A stretch of DNA of 64,000 bases from assembly GCF_024714475.1 (NCBI RefSeq), contig NZ_JAMZMI010000002.1, forward strand, positions 620,001 through 684,000. The letters are read 5' to 3'. Below are positions 31,773 to 41,181 of this stretch, piece after piece. Every line of letters starts with the position of its first letter. The first letter of the stretch is position 1. The notes below the pieces were generated by a model. That model did no database searches. It was given only the letters and a program-made list of their open reading frames with translations, and had not been told where the DNA came from. This stretch comes from Marinoscillum sp. MHG1-6. GTDB lineage: Bacteria > Bacteroidota > Bacteroidia > Cytophagales > Cyclobacteriaceae. The translations under genes and the position numbers were made by a program.

Positions 31773-32816
31773 TTAATTAAATATCAAACCTCCCGGTAAC
31801 AGGCCTGTCTCAAACTCGTCTAACAGCGTACCATTCGTTTCATACCTGTAAACCGAACCATTTTGGACGTAATCACTGGCATCAGCTACGTAGATCGTTC
31901 CGTCACCGGATACTCCAATGCCGTAAAAGCTGGTCACACTGGTAAATGCCGTTTGCGGAGCTGACTGTGCATCTACCTGAAGTACATATATACTACCACT
32001 ATTGTGGTAATAGATTTCATCTCCCGCCGGGCTTATCGCAATTTTACCTGAGATATTCGCTCCTAGCTCTATTGACTTCTTTACTTGAAGGGTTGTTGGG
32101 TCAATTTCATAAAAAGCACCGTCATTAGCAGGATCCCAGTTTTGATCGTAACCTCCGGCACATACTATCCAAATATCTCCATCCTGATCAACGACCATCT
32201 GTCCGGGAGAACTACCAACAGATATCGTATCAGTAACCTCTTCGGTAGATAAAGAAACGACAAAAACATTAGCTGAGCCATTGTTTGACACGAATAGCTG
32301 ATCTCCATTTTTCAATACTCCTTCTGGCTGGTAATCCATCGCAATAGTATTTGTAACCTCACCAGAAGTCAGATCAAACACAGAAAGCTTACCTTTTTCC
32401 GCATAGCTTACTGTTTCGGTTACATACCCTTTACTTCCGGATGTTGTCAAATATCTTGGCTGCTGTACACCGCTTAAAATGTACTTTTCTGAAAGCTGAT
32501 TATCCAAATCCAGTGCTATCACTTTATTACTGTTATTGACCACAAGAAATAACAAATTGTCATTGATATGACCGGATTGAAGCACGTCTCCGAGGTCCTG
32601 CCCCGACGCATTATTGTACTGTGCACTGTAAACTTTTTTGCTGACTGGTTCAAAATAAGAGAGGGAGGCATTGGCTGATCCAAAATTTCCTTCATTCAGG
32701 ACAAACACACCTCCATCAAAGCTCTTTGGCATTGATGGGTCGTTCTCTTCCTCTGAACACGATATCCAGACAAAAGCCAACGCAATCATTAATAACTGAT
32801 TTAGACTTCGTTTCAT
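31773..32816 (-). CDS. btuG: BtuG-like surface beta-propeller lipoprotein, predicted cobalamin binding
   Basis: 347 residues from ATG 32816 (the longer frame's first nine codons overlap the TonB receptor gene). Signal MKRSLNQLLMIALAFVWISC, lipobox WISC. The mature protein repeats YncE-type blades: ALDLDNQLSEKYILSG, SVFDLTSGEVTNTIA, FVVSLSTEEVTDTISV, EIDPTTLQVKKSIELG, an array of about seven. In Bacteroides, BtuG of this kind binds cobalamin on the cell surface and closes BtuB. The gene starts seven bases after the TonB receptor stop, and both lie behind the cobalamin riboswitch, so a BtuG role is well supported by context. Confidence 0.85.
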   Translation of the reverse strand: MKRSLNQLLMIALAFVWISCSEEENDPSMPKSFDGGVFVLNEGNFGSANASLSYFEPVSKKVYSAQYNNASGQDLGDVLQSGHINDNLLFLVVNNSNKVIALDLDNQLSEKYILSGVQQPRYLTTSGSKGYVTETVSYAEKGKLSVFDLTSGEVTNTIAMDYQPEGVLKNGDQLFVSNNGSANVFVVSLSTEEVTDTISVGSSPGQMVVDQDGDIWIVCAGGYDQNWDPANDGAFYEIDPTTLQVKKSIELGANISGKIAISPAGDEIYYHNSGSIYVLQVDAQSAPQTAFTSVTSFYGIGVSGDGTIYVADASDYVQNGSVYRYETNGTLLDEFETGLLPGGLIFN

Positions 32817-32823
32817 AGTTAAT

Positions 32824-34665
32824 TTATAGTTTGAATAATACATTTATTGAATAATTCCGACCGGGCATAGCCAGGTTGTTATAGTTTTCATAGTCCTCAT
32901 TGAGCACATTTTTCACCTGCGTTCCAAGGGTTATCTGATGCTCTCCTAATTCGATTTCATAATTCAGTATCAGGTTAAACACTGCAAAAGGTTCCACTGA
33001 ATCCCGCATCTCATTATTGAGTGTTGTAAACCGTCTGCCGGTATACACTCCATCCGCACCAAAAATCCAATGAGCAACGGCCAATTGGTAAGAAACACTT
33101 CCTGAGTGTAGCGGTACATAAATGAGTTGATTTCCAACATTGGTCCCTGACCTGTTTTGAGACTCGTTCAGACTATAACTTCCGATAAGCCTGTGATTTA
33201 CCATTAGCCCCTTGTAAGTCCAGGCAACCTGAGATTCTAGTCCCCTAACCCTAACATCTCGGAGGTTTTGGGGTGTTGAAATCCCCCCCAGTGGCACCCA
33301 ATAAATCCAATCCTCACTCCAGATGCCAAATCCCGTCGCAGAGGCCGTAAGTTTAGAGCTAGAATAATCCCATTCTGCTGCTAAACCTGCATCCAGAGAA
33401 ATGCTTGTCTCAGATCGCAGGTCAGGTTTGCCTCCCGGTCTCCAGTAAAGTTGATTTAAAGTCGGATACCTGAAACCATAAGAAGCACTCTGATAAGTCT
33501 TCAACTGAAAATGCTCCTTGACAATGAGTTGAATTTCATTTCCCAGGGAAGGAGTAAAAGGAATACGACCTTTATAAATGGATTGTCGCAAGTTCAAGCT
33601 GGTCTCCCAAAAGGTTGACCATCGCGTATTTAGGGAAGTAAAGAAAGCCCCCTGAACGTCATGAACCTCACCTGCATAATTGCTGGAATGTGCTTCAAAA
33701 TAGTTTAGGTTCCCGCCTGCTCTAACTTCAATATCATCAGACAGACCCCACGAATAGATACTTAAAGCGGAAAGCTGCCTGCTTGTGGTTCTAAGCGAAT
33801 CATTAAATAGCGTGCTATTGCTCAAATAGGATACCGTATTATTCCAGCATTCTGACTTGCGGTGAGAATTATGGACGAGCGCTATACGAGCATTTTCTGT
33901 TTCAATCGTATTTCGTGTAGAAAGGCTGCTTTTATTGGGTTGTATCTCCCGATCATTGAAGGTATACATACCATCAAGTAGGAACTTGTGACTTCTAACC
34001 TTATAACCAACTTTTTGCTGAAGTCCGTAATTGCTATTAGAAGCGTTTGTCTGAACGTGCTTTTCACCCTGATAATTGAAGCTGAAGTTATTTTTTAACC
34101 TATCCCAGTAGGCATTTGTAGATGCATAAAAATTGCCCTCCTCATAATTGGTCTTGATCCCAGTAAATTGTCTACCGAAACTACCTAATTCCAATCCAAC
34201 AGAGAGCGGACTGGATTCATTCGTATTGGAGATGTCAGTATCCAGGAGTATTGTTCCGCCTATAGCCCCACTCCCATAAAGTGCTCCCCCACTTCCCGGC
34301 TGCACAGCTAAGTCCTCTAAAAACCAACCCGGCCATTGTGAAAAGTCCATTTCACCCAGCGTGGGATAGTTAGAAGGGATGCCATGCCATAGCACAGCAG
34401 TATGACCAGCAGTAGTTCCCCGAAAGGCGATAGAACTCAACTGTCCATTTCCATAAGTTTTGAAGTAGATAGACGGCTCTCCTGTAAGAATACCATCAAG
34501 AGATTGCGGCTCATCAGCTAACTGAACAGACCTGACTCCTGTACCCGTAGTAAACGGCCGATACCACGAGCCACTTACCTCGACAGCATCGAGATAGGTC
34601 GTATCAGTTTGCGCCAAAAGCACACCATATCCAAGACCAAAGGTCAATAGTAAAACAAATCTCAT
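32824..34665 (-). CDS. btuB: BtuB-like TonB-dependent outer-membrane receptor, predicted cobalamin transport
   Basis: 613 residues from ATG 34665 (a TTG at 34680 would add five). Signal MRFVLLLTFGLGYGVLLAQ, a TonB-box-like region DTTYLDAVEV, then a plug with IAFRGTTAGHTAVLWHG and PGSGGALYGSGAIGG, then a 22-strand barrel ending AMPGRNYSINVLFKL, with a final Leu. At ~600 residues it has the size of BtuB, much smaller than SusC-type receptors, and it has no SusD partner. The cobalamin riboswitch at 34791-34952 directly precedes it, so its substrate is almost certainly cobalamin or another corrinoid. Confidence 0.92.
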   Translation of the reverse strand: MRFVLLLTFGLGYGVLLAQTDTTYLDAVEVSGSWYRPFTTGTGVRSVQLADEPQSLDGILTGEPSIYFKTYGNGQLSSIAFRGTTAGHTAVLWHGIPSNYPTLGEMDFSQWPGWFLEDLAVQPGSGGALYGSGAIGGTILLDTDISNTNESSPLSVGLELGSFGRQFTGIKTNYEEGNFYASTNAYWDRLKNNFSFNYQGEKHVQTNASNSNYGLQQKVGYKVRSHKFLLDGMYTFNDREIQPNKSSLSTRNTIETENARIALVHNSHRKSECWNNTVSYLSNSTLFNDSLRTTSRQLSALSIYSWGLSDDIEVRAGGNLNYFEAHSSNYAGEVHDVQGAFFTSLNTRWSTFWETSLNLRQSIYKGRIPFTPSLGNEIQLIVKEHFQLKTYQSASYGFRYPTLNQLYWRPGGKPDLRSETSISLDAGLAAEWDYSSSKLTASATGFGIWSEDWIYWVPLGGISTPQNLRDVRVRGLESQVAWTYKGLMVNHRLIGSYSLNESQNRSGTNVGNQLIYVPLHSGSVSYQLAVAHWIFGADGVYTGRRFTTLNNEMRDSVEPFAVFNLILNYEIELGEHQITLGTQVKNVLNEDYENYNNLAMPGRNYSINVLFKL

Positions 34666-34790
34666 CAGACTCAGAATCAATTATTCCAATCAATTCCAAA
34701 GCCCACGGATCAACCTAGTAACAATGAGAAACAATATGTCTTTCACCATCCTACGCTTTCACCCGAAGCTCAGAATAAAACAATTGATTT

Positions 34791-34952
34791 TGGCAGGTCT
34801 CCTGGCTCTTCCATGTGCACCGCCTTCCCGTCCCTAATGACAGTGGCAAGATGTGATACACATACAGTTCGGAATTACAGTTGCGGGGACAGCCCTCGAT
34901 TTTCACGAGATTCCCTTTTAATCTCATCAGCATGGGTAGCTGGTGAGAACCA
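34791..34952 (-). promoter_or_regulatory. Cobalamin (AdoCbl-type) riboswitch
   Basis: Read on the minus strand, the canonical blocks occur in order: a GGGAATCTCGTGAAAATC block (34899-34916), GCTGTCCCCGCAACTGTAA (34875-34893), GCCACTG (34841-34847), GGGAAGGCGG (34820-34829) and the B12 box AGCCAGGAGACCTGCC (34792-34807). All match the class consensus. The downstream region to the TonB receptor start (34665) is the expression platform; a GCTT/AAGC hairpin at about 34757-34772 is visible, but a classic terminator with a T run is not, so translational control is possible. Cobalamin should repress btuB and btuG. Confidence 0.97.
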
Positions 34953-34961
34953 TAATCAAGA

Positions 34962-34969
34962 CAAAATTA
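34962..34969 (-). promoter_or_regulatory. Candidate promoter -7 element for the riboswitch transcript
   Basis: On the minus strand the bases read TAATTTTG, a full TAnnTTTG match, about ten bases before the first conserved riboswitch base. The -33 region would fall inside the end of the DUF6580 gene and shows no clear TTTG. A promoter here lets the riboswitch-btuB-btuG transcript be made independently of the upstream genes. Confidence 0.45.
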
Positions 34970-34973
34970 GAAA

Positions 34974-35531
34974 TTATTTTTTCACGGGAACTGCTACCAC
35001 CTCTTTTTTATCTTCAGATAAATAGATGGCCAGGAAGTAGGTTCCAAATACCAGCGCAGTGTAGAACAAATCTCCCATGATTGTCTGTCTGAAAAATGGA
35101 ATAGCTAGCACATAGCATTCAATGAGTCCGGTAATATTAAGGGTATACATACCTGAAAACAGCCATACACCCAGGTTGGAGATCAGGTAGAATGACCCTG
35201 ATGCCATTAACGCTTTTCCAGCTAGTTTCAGAACTGTGCCCATTCTGGTCTGTGAGGTTCCCCAGTTCCATCGGCCAATCATCATGGTAAGAACCCATGC
35301 GCCATAAACCAAAACCATTACACCCGGAGAATAGAACCCAATGAACAGGTCAGAAATAAATACCGCTGCTAAAGGCACTATGGCCGACCAATAAGAACGA
35401 AAATAGAATCCGCTAAACAATGCTACCGCCGCCAAAGCCGTAAAATTAGGAGTATGCAATCCCACACGTGAAAATACCGCTACGAAAACCAGCAGCGCTC
35501 CTAAAAGAATGTCTTTAAAATACTTATTCAT
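34974..35531 (-). CDS. DUF6580 membrane protein, ECF S-component-like
   Basis: 185 residues from ATG 35531. About six membrane segments: ILLGALLVFVAVFSRVG, LAAVALFSGFYF, AIVPLAAVFISDLFIGF, VMVLVYGAWVLTMMIG, a middle pair ending in NLGVWLFSG and a C-terminal TIMGDLFYTALVFGTYFLAIYL. This is the size and topology of substrate-binding (S) subunits of energy-coupling factor importers, and DUF6580 is named as a putative transport family. It starts four bases after the DUF4430 gene and is followed directly by the cobalamin riboswitch, so corrinoid transport is likely. No EcfA/EcfT genes are in the window. Confidence 0.85.
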   Translation of the reverse strand: MNKYFKDILLGALLVFVAVFSRVGLHTPNFTALAAVALFSGFYFRSYWSAIVPLAAVFISDLFIGFYSPGVMVLVYGAWVLTMMIGRWNWGTSQTRMGTVLKLAGKALMASGSFYLISNLGVWLFSGMYTLNITGLIECYVLAIPFFRQTIMGDLFYTALVFGTYFLAIYLSEDKKEVVAVPVKK

Positions 35532-35535
35532 ATTC

Positions 35536-35961
35536 TTAATTTTTATTGCAAGGTGTATCACCGTCAGTGTAGTACCAATTCACGACATCTCCGTCCTTCA
35601 GTTCCATTATATCTACTCCCTTATTTGCCTTTTTACTGTTAAGGCAATAGATCCAGTAATATGGCTTCTCATTTCTCACCGTATCAAAGCCAACAATTAA
35701 ATGCCCCATGCCTTCATACAATGTATCCGACACATTGATTCCGGCCTCACTGGCATCTAAGGAAACCAGAACATCATAAAGAGACTTATCTGAATCCAAA
35801 GAGAGACTATCAAACGTCAACTCCTCTTCACCAAAATTAACCACTATTGTTGCATATCCACCTGCAACATCTTCTTTACTTTCCTCCTTACTACCTGACG
35901 AGGAACAGGAAGAAAACATCAGTAAGCCTAAAAAGAATACAGGAAGTATCGATTTAATCAT
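35536..35961 (-). CDS. DUF4430 lipoprotein, transcobalamin-like domain
   Basis: 141 residues from ATG 35961. The signal MIKSILPVFFLGLLMFSSC has the lipobox FSSC. The mature part, TIVVNFGEEELTFDSLSL ... SLYDVLVSLDASEAGINVSDTL ... GMGHLIVGFDTVRNEKPYYWIYCLNSKKANKGVDIMELKDGDVVNWYY, is DUF4430, the beta-rich domain that is also the C-terminal cobalamin-capping domain of intrinsic factor and transcobalamin. The final pattern 'YWIYCLN...GDVVNWYY' is typical. It leads the DUF6580 gene by four bases. A periplasmic or surface corrinoid-binding role is inferred from the domain and the riboswitch context. Confidence 0.85.
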   Translation of the reverse strand: MIKSILPVFFLGLLMFSSCSSSGSKEESKEDVAGGYATIVVNFGEEELTFDSLSLDSDKSLYDVLVSLDASEAGINVSDTLYEGMGHLIVGFDTVRNEKPYYWIYCLNSKKANKGVDIMELKDGDVVNWYYTDGDTPCNKN

Positions 35962-36081
35962 AGCACAAAGAAAGAGCATAATTACCTTTATGAAAAGAGA
36001 ATCTCTAAGGAGTATGAGGTGTTTCGAGTTTTACAACCATGGATTAAGCAACGAAAACTGACTCAACTTCATCTATCAGCT

Positions 36082-37347
36082 ATGAATCACAACCTTTTTC
36101 TCCCACTTTTACTTCTAATCCTATCCTTTCAGCAGCTACCCGCTCAGGAAAAGGCTCAGATCAAAGGAAAGCTTATTGATGCAGAATCAAAAGAGCCACT
36201 GGCCTATGCCACCATTGGATTTGACCAGGTTCCTATCGGTACGGTGTCTAATCAGGACGGTCTATTTCAATTTCAATTTCCTGATTCACTTCTTGGCCAC
36301 CCCATCACGATTAGCTCCATGGGCTATGAAAGCCGTACTTTTTCTGACACACGTGATGATGGCTACTACCTCATTAAATTGCCCCCTGCCATTCGCCAAC
36401 TGGATGAAGTGGTTGTTCGGCCATTAACCCCTCAGGCCTACATCAAAAAAGCAGTCAACAATTTTGACAATACATTGCCTCAGGACTCATACGGATCAAG
36501 GTCTTACTACAGGGAGTTACTGAGAGAAAATGGAGCTTATGTAAGCTATACGGAGGGAGTGTTTAAATCGTATTATCCCGCCTATAGGGATACTTCCAAA
36601 AATCAGCACCAGCTCCTACTTTACAGAAAGGAGGAAAATCCAAAGCGCATCGAGTTCATGCGCAAGAAAATAGATAAGGAAAAACGCAAAGAACAAAAAA
36701 AGGCTGAAAGAAAAGGAGAAGAGTTTGAAGACCCTGAGGTGGCTTTGGTAGAATCCACATTTGGAGGACCTAATGACATCTTTAGCCTGGCCATTAATCA
36801 TCATCGACTTCCAAGTTTTCTGGACAGCACGAAATTCAAACTCTACCGATATTCCTTCGATGAGTCCGTGCAATACAATAATAAGGAATTGTTGAACATC
36901 CGATTCAAAGCCAAAAATCCGGTCGAACACCAGCTTTCTACCGGAAATATCTATATCGATTTGAGCACCAATGCCGTCTCGCTGATCACACTGGAATCTG
37001 AACTTGTAATTCCTGCCCTTATCAAACCATTGCTTTTCCTTTACGGCCTAAGCATCAACGATATCGACCGTCAAATCCAAACCCGCTATCAGTATGTCAA
37101 TGGAAGATGGTTTCCTGAGTACTTCTATTTCTATCTCGAAGCCGACATGAAAAAGCGTCACCTGTTTGATGAGAATGAAAAAAGTCACTTTGAAATGGAG
37201 ATACTGATCAAATTAAATGAAATTCAATTTAGTGAAGTCAGCGAGATACCTGAGGATAAAAGGTTTAAACCAGGAGAGAAATTAAGTGAGCAAGTCTTTA
37301 ATAATGAAGGATTAAGCTGGGAAGAGATTAATACGGTTATCCAATAA
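36082..37347 (+). CDS. Secreted protein with carboxypeptidase-like regulatory domain
   Basis: 421 residues from ATG 36082 (a GTG at 36019 would add 21 residues and no signal sequence). Signal FLPLLLLILSFQQLPAQ, then an N-terminal CarboxypepD_reg-type domain: IKGKLIDAESKEPLAYATIGF and VSNQDGLFQFQFPD, followed by SSMGYESRTFSD. The rest includes a Lys/Glu-rich coiled insertion (about residues 210-240) and beta-rich segments. Such domains normally precede a TonB receptor barrel; here there is none, so it is a free-standing envelope protein. It is divergent from the cobalamin genes. Confidence 0.8.
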   Translation: MNHNLFLPLLLLILSFQQLPAQEKAQIKGKLIDAESKEPLAYATIGFDQVPIGTVSNQDGLFQFQFPDSLLGHPITISSMGYESRTFSDTRDDGYYLIKLPPAIRQLDEVVVRPLTPQAYIKKAVNNFDNTLPQDSYGSRSYYRELLRENGAYVSYTEGVFKSYYPAYRDTSKNQHQLLLYRKEENPKRIEFMRKKIDKEKRKEQKKAERKGEEFEDPEVALVESTFGGPNDIFSLAINHHRLPSFLDSTKFKLYRYSFDESVQYNNKELLNIRFKAKNPVEHQLSTGNIYIDLSTNAVSLITLESELVIPALIKPLLFLYGLSINDIDRQIQTRYQYVNGRWFPEYFYFYLEADMKKRHLFDENEKSHFEMEILIKLNEIQFSEVSEIPEDKRFKPGEKLSEQVFNNEGLSWEEINTVIQ

Positions 37348-38347: not shown

Positions 38348-39667
38348 ATGAAGCACATTGTCATTCTAGGTAATGGAATAGCCGGGATCACGGCAGCTCG
38401 TCATATCAGAAAGCTGTCTGACCATAAAATCACGGTGATTTCCGGTGAGTCCGAACATTTTTTCTCCCGCACCGCGCTCATGTATATCTACATGGGACAC
38501 ATGAAATATGAACACACCAAACCCTATGAGGACTGGTTCTGGAGAAAAAATAACATTGACCTGAAAATGGGTTGGGTGGAGCAGGTTGACTTTGATCGTC
38601 GCGAACTTCAATTCAACAATGGTGAAGCGATCAATTATGATCAACTAATTCTTGCCACGGGCTCAAACTCAAATAAGTTTGGCTGGAAAGGGCAGGATTT
38701 AAAAGGAGTACAGGGATTGTACTCCCTGCAAGATCTTGAACTGATGGAACAAAATACCCAAAATATTGAACGGGCAGTGATTGTGGGAGGTGGCCTCATT
38801 GGTGTGGAAATGGCCGAAATGCTTCACTCAAGGAACATTCCGGTGACCTATTTGATACGAGAATCGCATTTCTGGGATATCGTCCTCCCCGATGAAGAAG
38901 CCAGCATGATTGACAGGCACCTAAGAGAACATCATATCGATCTCAGAACAAATACAGAGTTGCTGGAAATCATTGATGACGGTGAAGGAAAAGTCAAAGC
39001 AGTTAAAACTAATGATAACGAAACCATACCCTGTCAGTTTGTTGGGTTGACCGTGGGCGTTCATCCTAACATCAACCTTTTTAAATATTCTACCCTGGAA
39101 ATAGACAAAGGAATCTTGGTGGATGAGCTCCTAAAAACAAACCTTCCGGATGTCTATGCTATCGGGGACTGTGCGCAATTAAAGAGTCCATCGCAATACC
39201 GAAAGAGTATCGAAGCAGTTTGGTATGTCGGTAGAAAAATGGGTGAAACGGTGGCGAAAACAATCTGTGGCACTCCAACTGTTTATAATCCGGGTGTATG
39301 GTTCAACTCAGCTAAGTTTTTTGATATTGAGTACCAAACCTATGGCTCCGTTCCTCCATACCACTCATCTTCGTTTTACTGGGAACATGCAGATGGAAAA
39401 AAAGCCATGAGAATTGTTTTTAACGAAAATTATGAGGTTGAAGGAGTCAACTTTATGGGTCTTCGTCAACGACATGAAGTCTGGGATAGATGGATCCGCG
39501 ACGGAAAAACCTTGCAATATGTCATGGAACACCTGACGGACGCCCATTTCGATCCCGAATTGTTTCGAAGGCATGAACAGGAAATTCAATCAAAATATAA
39601 TGGCGCGTTCCCTGATCATCAGGTCACCATCCGCAAGAAGGGCTTCTTAGAAAAAATACTGAACTGA
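38348..39667 (+). CDS. FAD-dependent NAD(P)H oxidoreductase
   Basis: 439 residues. Two Rossmann folds: VILGNGIAGITAARHIR (FAD, residues 5-21) and VIVGGGLIGVEMAEMLH (NAD, around 145), with the ATGSN motif between them and DVYAIGDCAQL near residue 275 completing the FAD site. This is the pyridine-nucleotide-disulfide reductase class, but there is no CxxxxC redox disulfide, so it resembles rubredoxin/ferredoxin reductases. The stop overlaps the start of the next gene by one base (ATGA), so they are translationally coupled and probably work together in electron transfer. Confidence 0.9.
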   Translation: MKHIVILGNGIAGITAARHIRKLSDHKITVISGESEHFFSRTALMYIYMGHMKYEHTKPYEDWFWRKNNIDLKMGWVEQVDFDRRELQFNNGEAINYDQLILATGSNSNKFGWKGQDLKGVQGLYSLQDLELMEQNTQNIERAVIVGGGLIGVEMAEMLHSRNIPVTYLIRESHFWDIVLPDEEASMIDRHLREHHIDLRTNTELLEIIDDGEGKVKAVKTNDNETIPCQFVGLTVGVHPNINLFKYSTLEIDKGILVDELLKTNLPDVYAIGDCAQLKSPSQYRKSIEAVWYVGRKMGETVAKTICGTPTVYNPGVWFNSAKFFDIEYQTYGSVPPYHSSSFYWEHADGKKAMRIVFNENYEVEGVNFMGLRQRHEVWDRWIRDGKTLQYVMEHLTDAHFDPELFRRHEQEIQSKYNGAFPDHQVTIRKKGFLEKILN

Positions 39668-41181
39668 TGAAAAATCTTGGATTGACTTTCTTTCTAGTAG
39701 GCCTGGGACTCTTTTTGAGCCTGTTCTTCATGTCAGATTATCAACTTAGCAATGAGGACTTCAAATCAATTGTCAAACAAGAGCATCAGGAAAGCTTGCT
39801 TCCTGAAATAGCGAACATTCTTGAAAAGCCATTTAGCAATGCCATTTCATTTGCAAATGCCATTGACCATGCTGTCAATACGGTTAATGAACAGATGCGT
39901 GCTACACAGCAATGGGATCAGGTAATCTATGATAACTACACCGCCTCATTAACGAGGGCCGCAACCAAAGGAATCATTACTGAACACCCCACAACTTTGT
40001 TCTTACTCATCTTCGGACTGGTCATCGGTGGAGGAGTAATTTTTAGTTTAGCTGGTAAGAACAGTCCTCCAGGGATCAAAAACAATGGGATTTTCTTTAA
40101 TGCACTTAATAACCGTGGCTGGATAGGTATACTGGTGGGCACAATCCTCATCGCTTTTTACATCCTTTTGTACTTCTATGATGCCCACATTATGAACTGG
40201 ATCATACTGGTCGATCCGCTTCAAAAATGGATCAATCCCAGTGCTACTTCTAGCCAGTGGTTCCTATATGGATTTCTTTATACCATCGCTGTCACCGTCA
40301 TGGGCGTGAGATTCATTATGAAGTATCGTCACAGCAAATACCAGATAGTCAGAACTATTTCGGTCATGTTTTTTCAACTGGCGTTGGCGTTTCTTCTGCC
40401 CGAAATACTCGTCCGTCTGAATCAGCCCTATTTTGATTTTAAAAACATGTGGCCGCTGGACTATGATTTCTTTGACGCCTGGCACATCAACATGCTCACT
40501 TCCGCTGGAGGTATTGGCATCTTTATGTTTGCCTGGGGGATCACCCTTTTCATGGTAGGCGTACCGGTGCTGGTATATTTCTTCGGCAAAAGATGGTACT
40601 GTTCCTGGGTCTGCGGTTGTGGTGGCCTCGCAGAGACTGCGGGCGACCCATTTAGACAATTATCAGATAAGTCCCTGCGAGCCTGGAAAATAGAACGCTA
40701 CCTCATTCATGGCGTGCTTGTTTTCGCCATCGTGATGACAGGAGCCGTACTTTACAACTTCATATCTTCTACGAACACCATTTTTGGTCTGGATACCTAT
40801 ACCTACTTACGAAAGCCATATGGCTTTATGATCGGCTCGATTTTTAGCGGAGTCGTTGGAACCGGGTTTTATCCTTTGATGGGGAACCGGGTATGGTGCC
40901 GTTTTGGCTGCCCATTAGCGGCTTACCTGGGATTTATTCAAAGATTCAAATCCAGGTTTAGAATCACGACGAATGGAGGCCAGTGTATTTCCTGTGGAAA
41001 CTGTTCCACCTACTGTGAAATGGGCATCGATGTAAGGTGGTATGCCCAGCGCGGACAAAATATCATACGATCATCATGTGTTGGTTGCGGGGTTTGTAGC
41101 TCGGTTTGCCCTCGGGGGGTGCTCAATCTGGAAAACAGGGATGAAGAAGGGCGGTTTGTGAAAAACTCTTTTATAGAGTAG
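39667..41181 (+). CDS. Membrane 4Fe-4S protein, NapH/NosR-like
   Basis: 504 residues with several membrane segments (FLVGLGLFLSLFF, LFLLIFGLVIGGGVIFSLA, ILVGTILIAFYILLYFY, GIFMFAWGITLFMVGVPVL). The cytoplasm-facing KRWYCSWVCGCGGLAET and WCRFGCPLAAYLG resemble NapH/NosR cluster-binding regions, and the C-terminus has two ferredoxin motifs, CISCGNCSTYCEMG and CVGCGVCSSVCPRGV. Coupled by ATGA overlap to the FAD oxidoreductase, it probably moves electrons between NAD(P)H and a membrane acceptor or a periplasmic partner. The acceptor is unknown; it is not accompanied by nitrate or nitrous-oxide reductase genes. Confidence 0.9.
   Translation: MKNLGLTFFLVGLGLFLSLFFMSDYQLSNEDFKSIVKQEHQESLLPEIANILEKPFSNAISFANAIDHAVNTVNEQMRATQQWDQVIYDNYTASLTRAATKGIITEHPTTLFLLIFGLVIGGGVIFSLAGKNSPPGIKNNGIFFNALNNRGWIGILVGTILIAFYILLYFYDAHIMNWIILVDPLQKWINPSATSSQWFLYGFLYTIAVTVMGVRFIMKYRHSKYQIVRTISVMFFQLALAFLLPEILVRLNQPYFDFKNMWPLDYDFFDAWHINMLTSAGGIGIFMFAWGITLFMVGVPVLVYFFGKRWYCSWVCGCGGLAETAGDPFRQLSDKSLRAWKIERYLIHGVLVFAIVMTGAVLYNFISSTNTIFGLDTYTYLRKPYGFMIGSIFSGVVGTGFYPLMGNRVWCRFGCPLAAYLGFIQRFKSRFRITTNGGQCISCGNCSTYCEMGIDVRWYAQRGQNIIRSSCVGCGVCSSVCPRGVLNLENRDEEGRFVKNSFIE

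Follow-up and report, generated by a model that had tools for sequence, protein, structure and literature searches.

The window analysed here is a stretch of 64,000 nucleotides (64 kb) from Marinoscillum sp. MHG1-6 (contig NZ_JAMZMI010000002.1, positions 620,001 to 684,000). It contains a minus-strand locus of 4.2 kb in which a gene pair, encoding a DUF4430 lipoprotein and a DUF6580 membrane protein, precedes a cobalamin (vitamin B12) riboswitch and the genes btuB and btuG. The initial annotation, made from the sequence alone, had placed these five elements there, and matches in Pfam, Rfam and the Protein Data Bank (PDB) recovered all of them at the same positions. In the order of transcription, and with a putative promoter element added, the features are:

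35536..35961, minus strand: DUF4430 lipoprotein (PF14478, 33.3 bits, cut-off 23.8; lipobox FSSC; a further in-frame ATG at 35979)
34974..35531, minus strand: DUF6580 membrane protein (PF20221, E 5.5e-42; reading frame open from a GTG at 35561)
34962..34969, minus strand: TAATTTTG, which fits TAnnTTTG at the 5' edge of the riboswitch (a reading of the sequence)
34775..34969, minus strand: cobalamin riboswitch (RF00174, 111.7 bits, E 3.7e-27, full model 1-189)
32824..34665, minus strand: BtuB-type TonB-dependent receptor (Plug domain, PF07715; reading frame open from a TTG at 34680)
31773..32816, minus strand: BtuG-type beta-propeller lipoprotein (DUF5074, PF16819, 1.5e-18; the reading frame from an ATG at 32843 overlaps btuB)

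The outer-membrane half of this locus is the same as in the BtuB-BtuG systems of gut Bacteroides (PDB 8p97, 8okv). A BtuB-type receptor and a DUF5074 propeller lipoprotein lie behind the cobalamin riboswitch, and the best PDB matches of both fall in one entry, 8p97; the initial annotation had described them as a BtuB-size receptor and a BtuG-like propeller. The receptor matches 8p97_A, 8p98_A ("Vitamin B12 transporter BtuB") and 8bmx_C (5e-42 to 6e-42), and also TIGR01779 at 1.4e-25, which is under that model's cut-off. The propeller matches 8p97_B and 8okv_B (3e-48 to 5e-47), which we take to be BtuG in Bacteroides BtuB-BtuG complexes, in keeping with the title of PMC10404256. The inner-membrane half, in contrast, would consist of DUF6580 (with DUF4430) and not of BtuFCD. 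The riboswitch, the only Rfam match above the gathering score in the window, had been rightly recognized but serves btuB-btuG: it begins only 4 nt past the DUF6580 stop codon, downstream of the pair, and is therefore the leader of the two genes that follow. A permissive Rfam scan of positions 34600-36500 found no second cobalamin riboswitch 5' of DUF4430. TAnnTTTG is the consensus of the Bacteroidota -7 promoter element, and TAATTTTG may be a separate promoter for btuB-btuG. The ATG of DUF6580 at 35531 lies 4 nt past the DUF4430 stop codon, so the pair looks translationally coupled.

We consider it likely that this locus takes up cobalamin by an inner step other than BtuFCD, with DUF6580 as a solitary importer independent of an energy-coupling factor (ECF) module and DUF4430 as an extracytoplasmic binder. 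The genome of the window (G000; 4.10 Mb, listed as 100% complete) has a single DUF6580 gene. BtuFCD had been reported missing, and a search of the whole genome bears this out for the permease (no match to the FecCD/BtuC family, PF01032; BtuF and BtuD were not searched separately). Nor did EcfT (PF02361) have any match, EcfA not being searched separately. Judged by FecCD-type BtuC and by EcfT, the genome thus encodes neither BtuFCD nor an ECF transporter, which were the systems that the initial annotation had suggested looking for. One further cobalamin riboswitch precedes metE, the gene of the cobalamin-independent methionine synthase (L193, 6434-9141), an arrangement typical of cells that can do without MetE whenever B12 is available.

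DUF6580 has the predicted fold of an S-component, the substrate-binding subunit of ECF transporters, as had been proposed from its shape, with cobalamin-bound structures nearest to it, although such a match does not prove function since AlphaFold2 was trained on such structures. The model, computed from the window protein and 64 relatives (64 of the 73 candidate rows, alignment A4), reached a pLDDT (predicted local distance difference test) of 90.0 and a pTM (predicted template modelling score) of 0.82. In the whole PDB, Foldseek placed BtuM with cyanocobalamin first (8c7p, E 1.0e-3, probability 1.00) and BtuM with hydroxycobalamin second (E 2.8e-3, probability 1.00), followed by ECF S-components. 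VIA-align ranked 8c7p and 8ovv first (Z 15.1 and 14.8), aligning 166 of 185 residues with 8c7p at 20% identity; the best scores for BioY, FolT, ThiT and RibU were 12.8, 12.4, 12.3 and 12.0, the S-components of the list ended at Z 9.2, and the next row stood at 6.5. Across 153 rows the family signature is R22, N29, D61, W123, Y129 and G135; R22, D61, W123 and Y129 are kept in 150-152 rows, N29 in 147 and H26 in 132.

The likeness to BtuM, the best structural match, extends beyond the fold. Both are small membrane proteins of hosts without an ECF module (as judged here by EcfT, EcfA not having been searched), and both are alternatives to BtuCDF that adjoin BtuB and often have a cobalamin adenosyltransferase nearby. 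According to the excerpted text of PMC6072759, many B12-dependent Gram-negative bacteria have BtuB without BtuCDF, BtuM occurs mostly in Proteobacteria, and its proposed mechanism combines toppling and facilitated diffusion with trapping by an adenosyltransferase. DUF6580, in contrast, was met here mainly in Bacteroidota, Ignavibacteria and Patescibacteria; a copy outside these usual phyla lies in Thermomonas hydrothermalis (Lysobacteraceae; L164). Unlike the systems of BioY, FolT, ThiT and RibU, with which it shares the fold, DUF6580 has a host genome without EcfT. It also differs from BtuM in lacking a conserved cobalt-ligating cysteine in loop 3 (Cys80 of BtuM), and cysteine-ligated decyanation is therefore not expected. 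A BtuM-like, cysteine-ligated chemistry was considered for the family and rejected on this ground.

The window DUF4430 protein (141-147 amino acids) consists of that domain alone, which the initial annotation had equated with the capping domain of intrinsic factor and transcobalamin. Fold and profile agree with this. The AlphaFold2 model and the profile A5 were made from the window protein and 24 relatives (24 of the 28 candidate rows; 25 sequences), and the model has a pLDDT of 84.7. VIA-align superposes it on bovine transcobalamin with Z 15.7 and a root-mean-square deviation of 1.4 A over 98 residues, the values for transcobalamin, intrinsic factor and haptocorrin together being Z 14.3-15.7 and 1.4-2.3 A. 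The Ruminococcus protein 3u7z, first in Foldseek, scores Z 13.9, and the remaining beta-grasp proteins listed reach at most 7.4. Among the matches is 5np4, a cyanocobalamin-bound structure of the isolated human beta domain. Profile A5 matches haptocorrin (1.8e-8), intrinsic factor (1.5e-6) and transcobalamin (2.2e-6), whereas phmmer with the window protein alone returned chance matches only. Fold and sequence-profile homology are thus common to the window protein and to the beta domain of these carriers (DUF4430, SLBB superfamily; PMC1796856, excerpted text). Unlike transcobalamin, it is a stand-alone lipoprotein, with no N-terminal alpha/alpha toroid fused to it. Surface lipoproteins of Bacteroidota carry acidic residues right after the lipoprotein cysteine; BtuG has them and DUF4430 has none there, which leads us to favour a periplasmic over a surface location for the latter.

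In Bacteroidota, DUF6580 replaces the FecCD/BtuC permease. Among 168 genomes sampled from the phylum, 69 have DUF6580 above the cut-off (G062, with a match below it, counted as negative), and 49 of the 91 genera have it. FecCD was found in 119 genomes at E 0.001, of which 109 have a strong match, defined by a best E of at most 1.2e-63, a threshold set after the output had been seen; the ten weak matches (2.5e-5 to 2.1e-11), all in DUF6580 genomes, were taken as cross-hits. DUF6580 without strong FecCD occurs in 58 genomes, strong FecCD without DUF6580 in 98, both in 11 and neither in one, such that 167 of 168 carry one or the other (Fisher 1.4e-32, or 3.6e-24 if weak matches are counted, kinship not being corrected for). 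The exclusion is seen within one family too: the window's genome has DUF6580 and no FecCD, four genomes of the same family show the reverse, and in two of these four (G076 and G111) FecCD and a cobalamin riboswitch are about 1.3 kb apart. EcfT is absent from 66 of the 69 DUF6580 genomes and present in three. Cobalamin riboswitches occur in 165 of the 168 genomes, and B12 responsiveness is therefore general. The single genome with neither DUF6580 nor FecCD (G136) has one too. DUF4430, in contrast, was found only in the window's genome (1 of 168 Bacteroidota, and 1 of 194 genomes of its order), hence in the sampled Bacteroidota DUF6580 generally stands without DUF4430. A survey proposed in the initial annotation, of DUF4430, DUF6580 and cobalamin riboswitches against BtuFCD, has thus come out as foreseen for DUF6580, which goes with riboswitches and replaces FecCD, but not for DUF4430 in this phylum.

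The neighbourhoods of DUF6580 fit a role in B12 uptake in part of these genomes. By a consensus pattern, a cobalamin riboswitch lies within 7 kb in 17 of 72 Bacteroidota DUF6580 loci (the window excluded). The pattern flagged 31 DUF6580 loci outside the window; Rfam confirmed all 11 that were submitted, five of them from the set of 72, and found one further copy each in L133, L159 and L173 that the pattern had missed. Two orders recur, riboswitch-BtuB-DUF6580 (often, and in several families) and riboswitch-BtuB-BtuG-DUF6580, the former with or without genes for SIR2, Diphthami_syn_2 (DUF71) and a Peripla_BP_2 protein without an evident signal peptide. The arrangement nearest to that of the window is riboswitch-DUF6580-riboswitch-BtuB, in L067, L133 and L173, whereas Ignavibacteria loci such as L126 have BtuG-BtuB-DUF6580 and then MetH. 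The BtuF-like Peripla_BP_2 proteins directly adjoin DUF6580 in L076 (7573-8511), L075 (7620-8585) and L171 (5992-6990), and are possibly cytoplasmic corrinoid binders. SIR2 and DUF71 genes stand in such a row in L077 (8631-10047); DUF71 has been linked to B12 salvage.

In Patescibacteria, which belong to the candidate phyla radiation (CPR), DUF4430 and DUF6580 are a recurrent gene pair beside B12 enzymes. A scan of named genomes with the DUF6580 alignment gave 560 confirmed places, and 33 of the best 80 were assigned to this phylum. In 27 of these 33 loci the gene immediately upstream, in the same orientation, encodes DUF4430, and 30 of the 32 source genomes carry DUF4430 at some position. The fetched stretches include a class II ribonucleotide reductase (RNR) or a cobalamin adenosyltransferase (CobO/PduO) in 18 of the 33 loci, with the adenosyltransferase in 12; the consensus pattern found no riboswitch in any of the 33. 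To lessen the selection on DUF6580, we surveyed 211 genomes of the phylum of G362 (Ca. Woykebacteria), which we take to be Patescibacteria; G362, the centre of this survey, and G366 had been found through DUF6580. After two matches below the cut-off (DUF6580 in G493, DUF4430 in G435) were dropped, each family was present in 57 genomes and both in 52. DUF4430 thus occurs in 52 of 57 genomes with DUF6580 versus 5 of 154 without it (Fisher 1.6e-37), and directly upstream of it, at 2-301 bp, in 40 of the 57. In at least 33 of the 57 genomes, DUF6580 has a class II RNR gene no more than 8 kb away, and such an enzyme is present in at least 47 of them versus at least 77 of the 154 others (p 1.7e-5; counts from 124 of the 126 genomes with RNR). 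The linkage of the two genes, proposed from the window alone, thus recurs in a second phylum.

Some loci also encode a possible counterpart of the other half of transcobalamin. Nine have the row DUF4430, alpha/alpha toroid protein, DUF6580 (L117, L135, L140, L145, L194-L197 and L199; L117 and L140 are not among the loci assigned to Patescibacteria), and five of them, L194-L197 and L199, are survey genomes missed by the count of directly upstream genes. In L140 and L194-L197 the toroid protein has a DUF4430 domain of its own. All nine rows resemble a split or duplicated transcobalamin beside a carrier. In six survey genomes (L201-L206), proteins of 453-613 amino acids carry a toroid and, C-terminal to it, DUF4430, and so have their domains in the same order as transcobalamin and intrinsic factor of animals. 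DUF4430-toroid genes face DUF6580 in L125, and in L198, L200 and L207 the DUF4430 and toroid genes were found with no DUF6580 on the fetched stretch. DUF4430 of Patescibacteria is thus found in stand-alone, split and toroid-fused forms. Pfam recognizes the toroid above its cut-off in L117, L135, L195, L201, L202, L205 and L206, and below every cut-off in L145, L199 and L204, the calls elsewhere coming from our own profile built from four proteins. The Pfam matches are to general alpha/alpha toroids; the eukaryotic cobalamin-binding family PF01122 matched one protein (L195), at E 0.0045, below the cut-off. In a tree of DUF6580, the window row groups with all 33 CPR rows in a mixed set (unstarred support, 82/96). 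The fork nearest to it joins two rows from Bacteroidota (94/74), and the window branch is long. Horizontal transfer of the window pair from Patescibacteria was considered as a possible origin.

From the gene order, folds, FecCD replacement and co-occurrence computed here, we infer ligand binding, hand-off, direction and energetics as follows. BtuG and BtuB, under the riboswitch, would take cobalamin across the outer membrane, judging by their homology. The DUF4430 lipoprotein would bind it extracytoplasmically and offer it to DUF6580, raising the effective affinity on the outer face. DUF6580 would then move it over the inner membrane with no ATPase module involved; toppling, facilitated diffusion and trapping inside the cell, as proposed for BtuM, are the probable mechanism. 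Such a mechanism fits DUF6580 because of its S-component fold, the absence of EcfT and the adenosyltransferase neighbours in Patescibacteria. In Bacteroidota, DUF6580 would take the place of BtuCD; in Patescibacteria, DUF4430 (sometimes with the toroid) and DUF6580 appear to be the whole importer, feeding class II RNR. These results support the import route by DUF4430 and DUF6580 put forward in the initial annotation. On balance, and with more reserve than for the window locus itself, we lean towards a broader view, in which DUF6580 proteins are unrecognized, widespread solitary cobalamin importers that replace BtuFCD across much of Bacteroidota and give Patescibacteria their B12, in the latter forming with a bacterial transcobalamin (beta domain with or without toroid) one ATPase-free importer, an arrangement mirrored in the window.

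Several observations weigh against these proposals. The riboswitch of the window does not precede the pair, and no riboswitch was found by the consensus pattern within 7 kb in 55 of the 72 other Bacteroidota loci. Strong FecCD is also present in 11 of the 69 DUF6580 genomes (21 if weak matches are counted). Many of these 55, such as the f21 set, have no visible B12 context, and many f21 loci adjoin MutS, YihY and YceI. In the Patescibacteria survey, five of the 211 genomes have DUF4430 without DUF6580 and five the reverse. The DUF6580 sequence profile matched no solved structure in the PDB. A cysteine is found in the loop equivalent to loop 3 of BtuM (residues 62-74, placed by position and not by superposing coordinates) in only 2 of 153 rows, and the aligned stretch lacks cysteine altogether in 31 rows. 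Finally, none of the 72 other Bacteroidota loci yielded DUF4430, which therefore cannot be essential to DUF6580 there. As for the f21 genomes, 15 of the 19 with DUF6580 lack strong FecCD, and two (G077 and G069) have a second DUF6580 behind a riboswitch. The order YihY-MPG-YceI-DUF6580 without B12 genes is frequent among them (L033-L063).

The lack of DUF4430 in those 72 loci might suggest that DUF6580 imports cobalamin by itself, and that the window DUF4430 is a bystander lipoprotein acquired with the pair or a surface helper of BtuB and BtuG. The divergence of the window protein from the Pfam family (33.3 bits) fits this view. Yet its beta-domain fold is predicted to be intact, only 4 nt separate its stop codon from the ATG of DUF6580, and the pair is frequent in Patescibacteria, which to our knowledge have no BtuB. 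We regard this alternative as possible but rather doubtful, and retain DUF4430 as the probable extracytoplasmic binder. It is less plausible that DUF6580 imports cobalt or, as CblT does, a compound related to corrinoids such as alpha-ribazole or dimethylbenzimidazole, with DUF4430 binding that compound or something else. S-component folds serve many vitamins, and not all riboswitch-controlled transporters are for cobalamin. However, the near-exclusion between DUF6580 and the BtuC-type permease, its operons with the cobalamin receptor BtuB and its transcobalamin-type partner favour intact cobalamin as the substrate, and its best structural match is BtuM.

An importer of whole cobalamin might still need an energizing partner that we failed to recognize, for example the ATPase of another transporter, as most S-components depend on an ECF module (PMC6072759, excerpted text). 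We judge this improbable: EcfT is absent from the window's genome and rare in DUF6580 Bacteroidota (3 of 69; Patescibacteria were not searched), genes with ABC-ATPase (ATP-binding cassette) motifs occur in only two out of 73 named loci of DUF6580, three genes off in both, and BtuM functions in E. coli, a host without an ECF module, according to the same excerpted text. Finally, the genomes are related and Fisher tests ignore kinship, but it is very unlikely that DUF6580 and the loss of FecCD merely follow deep lineages without a functional link, given the reversal within the window's own family, the spread of DUF6580 over 49 of 91 genera, the riboswitch-BtuB-DUF6580 synteny in several families and the separate B12 contexts in two phyla.

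Part of this picture is already in print. Burroughs and colleagues (PMC1796856, 2007; excerpted text) described bacterial transcobalamin-like domains, their fusions to alpha/alpha toroids and operons with CbiO/CbiQ, and proposed that they scavenge B12; their SLBB proteins are likewise extracytoplasmic and of DUF4430 type. The partner here differs from their CbiO/CbiQ systems, as it is DUF6580, EcfT (the CbiQ family) is missing from the window's genome, and ABC-ATPase motif genes are near the two DUF6580 loci mentioned above only. The initial annotation held that the pair was not established as the inner step, which stands for the role of DUF6580 and its pairing with DUF4430, neither of which we found in print, but not for B12 scavenging by DUF4430-type proteins. 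We found no mention of DUF6580 in the literature searched, from which most subscription journals and bioRxiv preprints were missing; judged by title, no paper on DUF4430 dealt with bacterial B12 uptake. Likewise, no paper was found there that brings together cobalamin, a transporter and ribonucleotide reductase in Patescibacteria, or cobalamin and an adenosyltransferase in the candidate phyla radiation. DUF6580 is a candidate for the inner-membrane B12 route of Bacteroidota that have BtuB but not BtuCDF, and of Patescibacteria; in the small genomes of the latter, the gene of a B12-dependent ribonucleotide reductase often stands beside it. The pair would also link the B12 carriers of animals to a bacterial gene pair, with import predicted to be free of ATP hydrolysis.

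Upstream of the locus, on the plus strand of the window (38348-41181), lie two genes, of which one encodes an FAD/NAD oxidoreductase and the other a membrane protein in which ferredoxin-like cysteine motifs were recognized by eye.

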